Assembly: GCA_023333565.1 (NCBI GenBank)
Contig: JAJKFH010002505.1
Location: forward strand, 248,001-312,000
Source of the DNA: Puffinus mauretanicus
Lineage: Eukaryota; Chordata; Aves; Procellariiformes; Procellariidae
Reading direction: 5' to 3'
Length of the DNA stretch: 64,000 nucleotides
A program made the position numbers and the translations under genes. The notes under the pieces are model-generated. The model made no database searches and was not told the origin of the DNA. It worked only from the letters and a program-made list of their open reading frames with translations. This document shows, in pieces, positions 29,116 to 56,942 of this stretch (positions are counted from its first letter, which is position 1; every line of letters starts with the position of its first letter).

Positions 29116-29126
29116 ATGGCGGAGTG
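29116..29126 (+). CDS. ARHGAP39-like exon 1 (11 coding nt)
   Basis: The start codon has a strong context, GGGCCATGGCG, with G at -3 and +4. Three codons (Met-Ala-Glu) and TG follow, then the donor GTG|GTGAGT at 29127. The phase 2 end fits exon 2, whose first base C makes a Cys codon. The exon was found by combining CpG-island position, start context, donor and phase. No protein similarity is possible over so few residues. Confidence 0.7.
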
Positions 29127-32100
29127 GTGAGTGCGGTCGCCGCGCACCTGTTGAGGCGGGTGGGAGGCGCCGCCGCCCCCTCGGGGCCCGCCGGGCCGGC
29201 GTGGGGAGCGGGCTGGAGTCGGGGCCGGGAGGCACCCCCGGCCTGGGGGGTGGCGGGCGCGGGGCCGGGTGAGCCGCGGGCCCCGGCGGGCGGGTGAGGG
29301 GCGGCCGGCGCCGGGCCGCGCCCTGTGGCGGCGGCAGTGCCAGGCCGAGCCGGGCGGCCAACTTGTGCGAAGAGCTGCCCTCCCGCAGCCGCTCCCCGGG
29401 CCGCCTCCCTCCCGCCTGTGCTGGCCTGTCTGCGGGTGGAAACTCCCGCACCCGCTCGGCTCCACCAGATCGGCTCCCCGCAAGGCCCGGCTCCCGCTGG
29501 GGCACGCCGGCCATTGCCAGGACCGGCTGTTCGCAGCGTCCGGGCGAGGCGGGTGGCCCCGAGTTCCAGTGAGCCGCGCTGGCCAGAGCCTGACCCAGAG
29601 CTCCCGGTCCTGCCTGGCCTTGGGGGTCCGGCAGAGCGGCAGCTGACAGCATCGCCCTCCCCGGAGACTGCGTCCGGGCTCTGCCGGGTGCCCTCGCACC
29701 TCTGAATACAAGTGGTTAATCAGAAGCAACCTCTGATTTTGTACCCGTTTCAGACCAGGCTCGCAGGCTCTCGGGTGGGTTGCATGCGTAGGTTGCTCTC
29801 TGTCGCTTAAAAAACCAAAACCAAACAATTACAAAATGTTTTCCTGGTCAAGTACGGGAACAGCTGTTGTACTCAGTTTGCTGGAGAGGGATGACCAGGA
29901 CAGGGTTCACTCCTCACCAGGAAGCGGGTAGGGAGCCAGGGTCACCTGTTGGTAGTGCGAATGGAGGGCCAGGTAGCCAGGCCAGTTTCCCAGGCTGCAT
30001 CCTGCTTCCAACAAACACAGGTGGATTTTAGTCTCCTCCGAATAACCCCATTCAGGGAGAATTCCTCCTGGTCGCTCTGCACTTCGGCCCATTGGCCAGA
30101 AGTGGTTGAATTAAGTTTGGCTCTGCTGGGAGGAGGGTACAGAGCCTAGCAGAAGCACTGTCCTCTCCGCGGCTGATGCCAGTTGCTATTGCGCTGTTTT
30201 GCCAGCATTTTTTTTTGTCCTAGATGAAAAGCTCAGAATGATTTAACATTCCTGTGAGTGCAGCTCTCCCCAGGGGCACCAGGTTTCAGCTGGCTTCTCA
30301 CATTCTCTTTGTCTGGGGGAGAGGAGGGAGGGCTGTGTTGGCGTTTTGCCTGGTACCTCGGTGACGGTGCAAGGTGTTTGGAATAATTTTTTATTTCTCT
30401 TGCACTTGAAGTTTTTCCTTTTTCTTCTGTGTCTTCTGCATCTTCTCCAGCAGAAAGCGGTTTGAGTTAGTCTATAAGAAGCAGTGTCTTGGGAAGGGAT
30501 AGCAAATCCTCTTGAGAGTGGATGTAGAATACCAGAATTAATCCAGAGCAAAATGATTAGCACAGCAGCACGCTCTCGGTCTGCCAGCAGCAGCAACTCC
30601 TAGCAGCTGCTTCTGCCTCCCTGATTTTGACAGCCAAGGGCACTTGGCGCTCAGGGATCGAGGTTGCAGGTTGCTTGCTTCAGGGGGTAAACTGGAAAAC
30701 CTGACAAAAGCACGTAGATTTGGGGCTATTGTTCCACTAGCCAGTGCAGAGGAGCACAGAGCTGCTTGTGCTGGATTTCAGCATAATTTTTCTAATGTAT
30801 CCCCATTGACTATCTCTTTGGTGCCTTTTGAGTTTGGTGTTTGCCAGGTTGACGAGACAGCTCTTTCCTATCAGTTGGATGGAGGCTATTTGGAGTGATG
30901 CTGAGATCACAGCAGATTATAGGAATGCAGATTTTGAAGCCAGGTTTTTGGTCGGATAGTTCACATGCCTTCTGTACTCACAACAGGTTTGCTTAGCTGA
31001 AACAGATGTCTTGGCCTTAGCTGGGAGTACATAAGCTACAGGGAGATCTAAGTATACTGGCCTGGTGCGTTTTGTAACCAAGAGAATTTTATGGTCGTCC
31101 TTGTGATGCAAAAGGCTGTTTTCAGCCTGACCGTTACTGGATCTGCAGCTGAAAACCTCATGAGAGACTTGCATGTTTATTGTGCCAACAAGACATGCAG
31201 AATCTGGTTCACTGAACGCTGCCCTGCTTTAGGGGCACAAAAGGCAAATGGCTGTCATTCAGCTGATTTATTTGATCTCTAGAAAACTGTAATGTGACGT
31301 GGTGCAAAGATGAAAGGAGGAGAGACTGAGACTCCTGTAGTGAACTGCCTAATAGGTAAGAAAATCTTGCAGATTTCAATGTATTTGTGTCTGAGCTTTG
31401 AGGCACTTTTTTGATCAATCCTGCCATTCTTTTGGGGTTGGCTTCACAGGATTGGGGCAACTGCCTACTGGCAATCAGGTAAAGTTTTGTAAACCAGGGA
31501 ACAGTTGTTTTTGGTTTTTTTTTTTCCCATAGAGCCACGGACGAAGAACTATTAGCATCGTTGAGGGACTGTGGGAAGGACTGTAAGATCTGAATCAGCT
31601 TTAATGGAATCGCTTCTGTAATTAAAGATAACGAAGCATAAACTGCTGTAGGATTCTGGCTTTTTGGCCTATGAGGGTGGGTTTGTTGTTTTTTTTTTTT
31701 TTTCCCCTGGCAGTGCAGTTTAATAAATATTCATATTCGTGAACTCTTTCTTTGAAGTCGCAGAAGGATGTGTCATATCTATATTTCTTGATAGGTAAAT
31801 GCATTAGTAAGGATACTACTTGGTTGCCAGTTTACCTATGGAGAAGAAAGCTTTTTAGTTTGGACTTGCTGTTTTAGTAGCATGTTTTTGGCTGTTTGAA
31901 TTAAACAGCCTCGGGACGTGAGCAGAGGGTGATCTTCCAGCCTGTGCCAGAAGTACTGGGGATTGCTGAAGCCCTGTTAGCTGCGTGGGTAGAAGGACTG
32001 GGGATGGTACTGAGTGCGCTTGTTCAGTGAGAAACCTGCTGGTCTGACTGGCCATTTTAATTTGATTAATACAAAATATAAAGGATCACATGCTTTATGT

Positions 32101-56100: not shown

Positions 56101-56942
56101 TCCCGAGGTGGCATTAACAACAGGGTGCAGTTCCCAAAAGGAGCATATCCTGCTTTGCAGATCCTCCCTGCTCTCAAGAGCGAGTTCCCCCGCACATCTC
56201 GTGAGGCGCCAGCACTCCTGCCATCGCGCCAGCCCTTCATGTGAGTTATCAGATCATCAGCAGACGATGCTCGCCCATCCCATGCCCCTTGTCCCGGGCT
56301 GGGACGTCAGGGCTGGGCTGGGGGGTTGACCTCCCCTTCCCTGTGCTAGGGAGCTGCTGATTTGCCTCGGGCCCCATCTCAAACCCTTCCGCTGAGCTTG
56401 TTAGATCACTGAATGGCCCCAAGCAATGCTTTGATCTGCAGCATGGCTCCCTGGCCCAGAGGTAGCAGCTCTGTAGGACTCCCAGACAACCCCTTTGCCT
56501 CGAGCCTCTGTTCCAGACTAACACGGCTCTCATGTCCCTGCAGCTCGGACTGGGTGGAGATCATTGAGCCCCGCTCCCGGGAACGGATGTACGTCAACCT
56601 GACCACTGGCGAGTGCGGCTGGGAGCCCCCTCCCAACCTGAAGGTGCGCCAGTCGGACCAGAAGCAGTGGTGGGAGCTCTTCGACCAGAACAACAACCGC
56701 TTCTACTACTACAATGCCATCACACGGCAGACGGTGTGGCACCGGCCCCAGGGCTGCGACATAGTGCCCTTGGCACAGCTCCAGGCCATGAAGCGCAGCT
56801 CCCAGCCCGACTGCCGGGGCCAGCAACACCGGGGCAGCCCTGGCAGCGACGGCAGAAGCACCCCCATCCAAATGGCCCTCCTGCAGGAGATGGAGAAGGG
56901 CAAGGCGGACTGCGCCATGGAGAAGAGGAAAGACCCTGGCAG
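29116..56942 (+). CDS. ARHGAP39-like (Vilse/CrossGAP family) Rho GTPase-activating protein, N-terminal part, two exons
   Basis: Members of this family carry two N-terminal WW domains, a long linker, a MyTH4 domain and a C-terminal RhoGAP domain. They inactivate Rac/Cdc42 in axon guidance and dendritic-spine signalling. Here exon 1 (29116-29126, ATG GCG GAG TG) and exon 2 (56544-56942) join with matching phase to give [20 protein letters not shown] and on, 136 codons plus two bases. WW1 spans about residues 7-33 (W7, Y20, W30, P33). WW2 spans about 47-72 (W47, the aromatic triplet Y58-Y60, W69, P72). [15 protein letters not shown] follows, closely matching ARHGAP39 as I remember it. The N-terminus is much shorter than that of human ARHGAP39, and many residues differ, so I favour a paralog over ARHGAP39 itself. 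MyTH4 and RhoGAP exons lie beyond the window. Confidence 0.87.
31690..31704. repeat. poly-T tract
   Basis: About 15 consecutive T, followed by CCCC. Low-complexity sequence in the intron. Confidence 0.8.
39300..41350 (+). mobile_element. old CR1-clade LINE, reverse-transcriptase region, broken
   Basis: Plus-strand sequence follows the order of a sauropsid CR1 ORF2. A lysine-rich pre-RT stretch (about 39320-39540) is followed by GACCGGTGAGTCTGACCTCTG (about 40000). Remnants of the RT coding region come next: 'FQTAFDKV' near 40180, 'WQMNFNVGK' near 40520, and the later RT/3' part to about 41350 (AAATCATGACGGCACTGATT, AAAAGGCATTTGG). Stops and frameshifts occur throughout, so it is inactive. 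The divergence suggests an old CR1 subfamily, more like those seen in turtles and crocodilians than young chicken CR1 copies. Boundaries are approximate. Confidence 0.75.
41370..41960 (+). mobile_element. second CR1-clade LINE fragment
   Basis: Starting near 41370 the sequence returns to the CR1 RT region. It contains GAAGAGCCAGCATGGCTTTTG (a segment normally upstream of 'AFDKV'), GGTGATCCAGTGGA and GTTTGTACGTGACCTAGAAAAGGGG. Because this repeats a region already passed in the preceding element, it is a second copy or an internal duplication. It is broken in all frames, and its right end is uncertain. Confidence 0.6.
42644..42664. repeat. poly-T tract
   Basis: More than 20 consecutive T on the plus strand. 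This could be the A tail of an old minus-strand retrocopy, but I see no recognisable source sequence beside it. Confidence 0.8.
49975..50050. repeat. adjacent G-rich and C-rich tracts
   Basis: A short TA run is followed by a G tract (about 49981-50001), about 25 bp of mixed sequence and then a nearly pure C tract (about 50025-50050) on the same strand. The two tracts are complementary and could form an imperfect hairpin. Confidence 0.8.
53584..53625. repeat. imperfect 21-bp tandem duplication
   Basis: TTGATCACTCAACTGCGTC is followed directly by a copy with A-to-G and C-to-G changes (TTGATCACTCAGCTGGGTC). The ORFs starting there are chance. Confidence 0.7.
56544..56942 (+). CDS. ARHGAP39-like exon 2, tandem WW domains
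   Basis: The acceptor is CATGTCCCTGCAG, with the first base at 56544. The donor is GGCAG|GTAGGG, with the last base at 56942. The 399-nt exon encodes [19 protein letters not shown] and GECGWEPP (WW1), [17 protein letters not shown] and [13 protein letters not shown] (WW2). A polar tail rich in Ser, Gln, Lys and Glu follows, ending near EKRKDPG. It leaves in phase 2. Codon third positions are strongly G/C. WW domains bind proline-rich ligands. Confidence 0.95.

Follow-up and report, generated by a model that had tools for sequence, protein, structure and literature searches.

ARHGAP39-like, a probable second Vilse-type RhoGAP gene and ohnolog of ARHGAP39 between RBM39 and PHF20 in Puffinus mauretanicus

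The Rho GTPase-activating protein (GAP) ARHGAP39, also termed Vilse, CrossGAP, Porf-2 or KIAA1688, combines tandem WW domains with a MyTH4 and a RhoGAP domain. According to a 2018 review, Vilse/ARHGAP39 binds Robo via the WW domains, accelerates GTP hydrolysis by Rac1 and acts on Cdc42 in the endothelium, and loss of ARHGAP39 is embryonic lethal in mice (PMC6220574). The same text mentions two Southern bands in chicken and leaves duplicates “including chickens” possible. Drosophila Vilse (RhoGAP93B) likewise harbours WW, MyTH4 and RhoGAP domains. Here we analyse a window of 64,000 nucleotides (nt) from the bird Puffinus mauretanicus (GenBank assembly GCA_023333565.1, contig JAJKFH010002505.1, positions 248001-312000, i.e., contig coordinate = window position + 248000; genome of 1.21 Gb in 2370 contigs), which contains the beginning of a gene termed ARHGAP39-like.

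ARHGAP39-like is very probably a second vertebrate Vilse-type RhoGAP, namely an ohnolog of ARHGAP39 that dates from the early genome duplications, occupies the RBM39-PHF20 interval in this bird, was kept by other non-mammalian jawed vertebrates and was lost on the mammalian stem. The fly gene resembles it in its domains, yet is an outgroup to both vertebrate copies and stands outside of the duplication. ARHGAP39-like is already catalogued under an automatic “39-like” name, and the “rho GTPase-activating protein 39-like” entries of birds, reptiles, amphibians, fishes and sharks are its orthologs, which do not differ from it in kind. No description of the gene as an ohnolog was found in the literature searched, which comprised titles and the starts of abstracts, with subscription papers mostly outside of its range. 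At the sequence level, ARHGAP39-like answers the remark in the review on a possible chicken duplicate (PMC6220574). Moreover, one-gene mammals can be cleanly contrasted with two-gene vertebrates with respect to a regulator that acts in axon guidance and on dendritic spines.

Structure of ARHGAP39-like and of ARHGAP39 in the same genome

The splice model of ARHGAP39-like comprises nine coding exons with GT-AG boundaries at all eight introns and a single open frame of 998 residues. The first two exons lie within the window, and the other seven follow on the same contig and end 20.7 kb past the window. An earlier sequence-only reading had proposed an 11-nt first exon and an ARHGAP39-family tandem-WW exon at this locus, and both stand: the phases of exons 1 and 2 are compatible, exon 1 is followed by GT, exon 2 is bounded by AG and GT, and Pfam recognizes a WW domain in the latter. 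The gene is composed of the following parts (positions beyond 64000 are window-equivalent):

29116..29126, plus strand: coding exon 1, 11 nt, encoding MAE plus 2 nt, ATGGCGGAGTG then GT (splice model, matching phase)
29127..56543, plus strand: intron 1, 27.4 kb (GT...AG boundaries)
56544..56942, plus strand: coding exon 2, tandem WW domains (splice model; Pfam WW; identity to the ARHGAP39 WW block)
56943..64000 (reaches the window end), plus strand: intron 2 (splice model)
66299-67607, 72356-72902, 80594-80667, 82162-82361, 83247-83338, 83883-84052 and 84495-84689 with the stop, plus strand: later coding exons (splice model)
74175-74264, plus strand: optional 90-nt cassette exon, in frame, after MyTH4

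The top database matches of the deduced protein are bird proteins with 93% identity over the full length, and hence the gene model does not reflect chance. Pfam assigns the same set of domains, WW, MyTH4 and RhoGAP, to ARHGAP39-like and human ARHGAP39. Both N-terminal WW domains that characterize the ARHGAP39/Vilse family are present, WW2 by Pfam (E 5.8e-10) and WW1 by alignment, where both tryptophans are kept; WW1 goes unreported by Pfam in human ARHGAP39 as well. The further family traits, a MyTH4 domain (residues 688-791, 94.7 bits) and a C-terminal RhoGAP domain (109.9 bits), are also found. The motifs EGIFR, LLKLWYRELEEP and MAPNCLR are located at residues 843, 880 and 956, respectively, and the Arg of EGIFR presumably represents the arginine finger of the RhoGAP family. 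In a protein search with ARHGAP39-like (669 matches among the 7988 best candidates scored; 120 listed, as cluster representatives), 113 of the 120 matches listed contain EGIFR. No solved structure matching human ARHGAP39 was found at E 1e-20.

The same genome harbours a separate ARHGAP39 on the minus strand of another contig (C1686), for which nine exons were modelled from the WW exon onward (1070 residues); its first coding exon was not found in the modelling. The identity of this protein to human ARHGAP39 amounts to 82% over 1075 aligned positions, whereas ARHGAP39-like is 45% identical to either of the two, and its exon 2 shows 61% identity to the WW block of the same-genome ARHGAP39. Searched for MyTH4 domains, the whole genome yielded 21 places, of which 16 (15 loci) were inspected, the other five being small and partial; among the 16, only ARHGAP39-like and the gene on C1686 are of the ARHGAP39 type. 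A genome search for RhoGAP domains (143 matches, 150 of 237 candidates scored) returned the window contig and C1686 once each.

Like ARHGAP39, ARHGAP39-like possesses exons of 74, 200, 92 and 170 nt, and these lengths are the same in the copy on C1686. Unlike in ARHGAP39, no counterpart of the 81-nt exon that follows the WW exon was found in ARHGAP39-like, and the RDYS motif of this exon occurs in none of the 120 matches listed for ARHGAP39-like versus 52 of the 120 listed in a second search, which used the same-genome ARHGAP39 and gave 869 matches. Both genes also share a lysine-rich, in-frame optional cassette of about 30 residues after MyTH4, which is ~93 nt long in ARHGAP39 (near C1686 16364-16269) and also occurs in chimaera and shark copies. 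Since the cassette exon is found at the same place of both copies, it likely is older than the duplication that separates them. Mouse ARHGAP39 isoforms differ by this cassette, there 31 residues long, according to the review (PMC6220574).

Two clades and the tandem WW block

For the MyTH4-RhoGAP part, a tree was computed from 43 rows and 405 columns and rooted on seven invertebrates; Salmo was put in the ARHGAP39-like group and Hemibagrus in the ARHGAP39 group after a preliminary tree had been seen. The ARHGAP39-like clade comprises 20 rows (19 of them from the database; support 100/99), with three cartilaginous fishes branching first and ray-finned and lobe-finned lineages thereafter; 13 rows form the ARHGAP39 clade (support 96/93). 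Within the former, the alligator copy (P0069) is found on a long branch (0.12) compared to turtles and birds. ARHGAP39-like falls outside of the ARHGAP39 clade and, therefore, is not a one-to-one ortholog of human ARHGAP39. Approximately unbiased (AU) tests rejected a sauropsid duplication, where the sauropsid copies of both types are forced together (p 2e-59), as well as a post-shark duplication, where the bony-vertebrate copies of both types are joined without the sharks (p 0.0013). Since the latter is rejected and chondrichthyans lie within the ARHGAP39-like clade, the duplication is, as judged from the sequences compared, older than the living jawed vertebrates, i.e., older than the split of chondrichthyans and bony vertebrates.

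Fixed differences between the clades were counted at thresholds of 90% in an alignment of 41 rows (20 ARHGAP39-like, 12 ARHGAP39, two cyclostomes and seven invertebrates), where 19 and 11 rows of the two types, respectively, are database sequences hand-picked as a spread of the listed matches. The WW block contains 46 columns with the same fixed residue in both clades, and 12 where the fixed residues differ. At these 12 sites, the lamprey shows the ARHGAP39 state throughout, and the hagfish shows it at 10, the ARHGAP39-like state at one and neither at one. Biomphalaria is without an aligned WW1, and the site counts per species use the remaining six invertebrates, each of which matches ARHGAP39 at 8 to 11 sites and ARHGAP39-like at 0 to 2; of the 12 sites, the Drosophila arizonae protein shows the ARHGAP39 state at 11 and the ARHGAP39-like state at none. 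At least four of the six side with ARHGAP39 at nine sites, and with ARHGAP39-like at none. The counts for lamprey, hagfish and invertebrates argue that ARHGAP39-like is derived in its partner-picking end, the tandem WW block, while the enzyme end appears to have diverged on both sides. In the MyTH4-RhoGAP part, 242 columns are identical and 26 are fixed differences between the clades.

Map position, distribution and alternative explanations

ARHGAP39-like is flanked by two genes:

1..11504, minus strand: RBM39, 5' part, with coding exons 11504-11454, 9623-9573 and 235-173, continuing left of the window (tblastn, RBM39 probe)
Window-equivalent 106519 to beyond 132730, plus strand: PHF20 (tblastn, PHF20 probe)

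RBM39 is located upstream of ARHGAP39-like on the opposite strand, with 11504-11454 as its first coding exon, and PHF20 is located downstream. The best PDB match of an exon left of the window is RNA-binding protein 39, and that of a PHF20 exon is PHD finger protein 20, with PHF20L1 matching more weakly. Human RBM39 and PHF20 we take to be adjacent genes on 20q11, and PHF20L1 at 8q24 is presumably the partner of PHF20 on the other side. A location of ARHGAP39-like on the 20q11-equivalent side is thus supported, because RBM39 and PHF20 flank the gene, and this map position together with the age of the duplication forms the basis for assigning the gene to the two rounds of early genome duplication (2R). 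Among the matches listed, many bird assemblies have ARHGAP39-like on a sequence of about 14-20 Mb (e.g., Numida 14.0, Taeniopygia 15.5 and Rhea 18.7 Mb), with exceptions such as Harpia, where it lies on a 110 Mb sequence; chicken ARHGAP39 is found on a sequence of 149.9 Mb. Another study assigns chicken ARHGAP39 to chromosome 2 (PMC11061962).

A scan for other genes by codon bias gave 71, 70 and 38 candidates in three stretches, and the 14 best of each, which were examined, mostly reflect CpG-island composition and frames in CR1 repeats. Among the 14 best of the 38 candidates on C1686 no further gene was detected; those shown represent ARHGAP39 exons or frames from repeats or noise.

The sequence-only reading had placed the gene next to RBM39 on the 20q11 side and had regarded it as a likely 2R ohnolog of ARHGAP39 and as a second Vilse-type RhoGAP. 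The neighbours on both sides bear out the former; the two supported clades with chondrichthyans inside that of ARHGAP39-like, its position outside of the bird ARHGAP39 clade, and the presence of another ARHGAP39 in the genome all speak for the latter.

The matches listed for ARHGAP39-like derive from birds, turtles, squamates, alligator, amphibians, lungfish, coelacanth, gar, bichir, sturgeon, paddlefish, bony-tongues, sharks, rays and chimaera. Those listed for ARHGAP39 include human, mouse, platypus, echidna, marsupials, chicken, frog, coelacanth and lungfish, and a third search, with a composite query shaped to favour long proteins (93 matches), added lamprey, hagfish, salmonids and invertebrates. 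Going by their names, the 120 of 669 matches listed for ARHGAP39-like include no mammal; three nameless ones are nearest to frog (93%), chimaera (89%) and sawfish (89%) sequences. Mammalian proteins, platypus and echidna included, do occur in the database searched, and a mammalian ortholog as conserved as those of sharks would be expected among the matches listed. We infer that ARHGAP39-like was lost on the mammalian stem rather than left unannotated. The gene had initially been assumed to be absent from human and kept in the lineage of this bird: the absence holds by database listing but concerns mammals as a whole among the matches listed, and the gene is indeed present here but not special to the lineage, as it is seen across non-mammalian jawed vertebrates.

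Several points weigh against an ohnolog that was rebuilt at its WW end and lost in mammals. The three cyclostome rows group with the ARHGAP39-like clade at a support of 86/65, and the first and the second round are not distinguished; the AU test yields p 0.29 for the clades of the two copies together and p 0.08 for ARHGAP39 plus cyclostomes, and the tree sample is without any chondrichthyan ARHGAP39. Some relatives of ARHGAP39-like diverged faster, with branches of 0.12-0.13 in alligator, Salmo and lungfish. The absence from mammals is read from 120 listed of 669 matches and not from the human RBM39-PHF20 gap. The WW comparison comprises 12 sites, some of which the hagfish (one) and single invertebrates (zero to two) share with ARHGAP39-like. 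Finally, the 26 MyTH4-RhoGAP differences are not one-sided: the invertebrate plurality agrees with ARHGAP39 at 11, with ARHGAP39-like at 7 and with neither at 8 sites, and by a stricter count the invertebrates go with ARHGAP39 at 9 and with ARHGAP39-like at 6 sites, and are mixed or different at 11.

Among the alternatives, an ancient small-scale duplicate that predates the jawed vertebrates and does not stem from a whole-genome duplication fares best, yet is improbable. The tree alone cannot separate the two modes and gives the cyclostomes no firm placement, whereas the marked size difference between the sequences that carry the two copies in bird assemblies, and the position of ARHGAP39-like between RBM39 and PHF20, argue for the genome-wide event. 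Highly improbable is a younger duplicate, be it a tandem or retro copy in birds and reptiles or a duplicate of bony vertebrates. No support for it was found, and the shared exon lengths would fit a segmental duplicate, too, but both the sauropsid and the bony-vertebrate version are rejected by the AU tests under the model used, relatives exist in sharks, rays and chimaera, and a retrocopy is ruled out, since the gene is multi-exon. It is hardly credible that the gene is a plain bird ARHGAP39, diverged and moved: several databases do call the bird orthologs “rho GTPase-activating protein 39”, but there are two distinct clades, and the second locus on C1686, at 82% versus 45% identity to human ARHGAP39, rules this out. 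Equally far-fetched is an ortholog of human ARHGAP40, a gene that groups with ARHGAP18/28; its number and a map position which we take to be 20q11 would fit, but no human protein is among the 120 of 669 matches listed, though human ARHGAP39 is in the database.

As an ohnolog of ARHGAP39, ARHGAP39-like would select its partners through the tandem WW block and be recruited to proline-rich proteins that differ at least in part from those of ARHGAP39, its MyTH4 domain would provide cytoskeletal or membrane anchoring, and its RhoGAP domain would turn off Rac/Cdc42 like ARHGAP39, as suggested by the intact state of the arginine finger and of the corresponding Lys and Asn motifs. Since only the WW block is one-sidedly derived, the WW ligands of ARHGAP39-like probably differ from those of ARHGAP39. 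A more speculative extension, which we consider possible though on the doubtful side, is that the tandem-WW surface of ARHGAP39 is the ancestral one, hardly altered since the insect split, while that of ARHGAP39-like was rebuilt and its GAP machinery preserved. Under this view, two Rac/Cdc42 GAPs connected to different receptors would operate in non-mammalian jawed vertebrates. Mammals would have lost one of them and rely solely on ARHGAP39, and the embryonic lethality of ARHGAP39 loss in mice could in part be due to this dependence.

Names and N-termini in the databases

From sharks to birds, orthologs of ARHGAP39-like are named “rho GTPase-activating protein 39-like” or, misleadingly, “39”. 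Because some entries carry the latter name, studies on ARHGAP39 in birds, frogs or fish must specify which gene is meant, and reports on bird ARHGAP39 may mix two genes. The ARHGAP39-like records P0005, P0007 and P0020 (pigeon, ostrich and zebra finch) are named “rho GTPase-activating protein 39” without “-like”.

Among the matches listed for ARHGAP39-like, 95 show the start of WW1, and 52 of these begin with MAE or MAD, 3-8 residues before WW1. An MAE- start (MAERL) is also present in 13 of the 111 listed ARHGAP39 matches that show the WW1 start, and the 12 of these with ids shown are all non-mammals, e.g., turtle, zebra finch, chicken, snake, caecilian and coelacanth; mammalian ARHGAP39 starts listed are mostly at least 28 residues long and of different sequence. 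As judged from these starts, both ARHGAP39 and ARHGAP39-like inherited the short MAE- start from their common ancestor, and it is not diagnostic. The short N-terminus singled out in the sequence-only reading is thus a true feature of ARHGAP39-like, but not a peculiar one.

Ten of the 95 scorable starts look as if the splice acceptor had been translated in place of the 11-nt exon, and hence this exon seems to be often overlooked by annotation. The bird records P0001, P0013, P0024 and others have starts like ...LSCPCSS, an apparent read-through of the 3' splice site that precedes the WW exon. Immediately 5' of the CpG-rich first exon lies a G-rich GGGCAG minisatellite of 0.5 kb (28301-28806, ~88 six-base units), which may help account for the absence of the 11-nt exon from some annotations.

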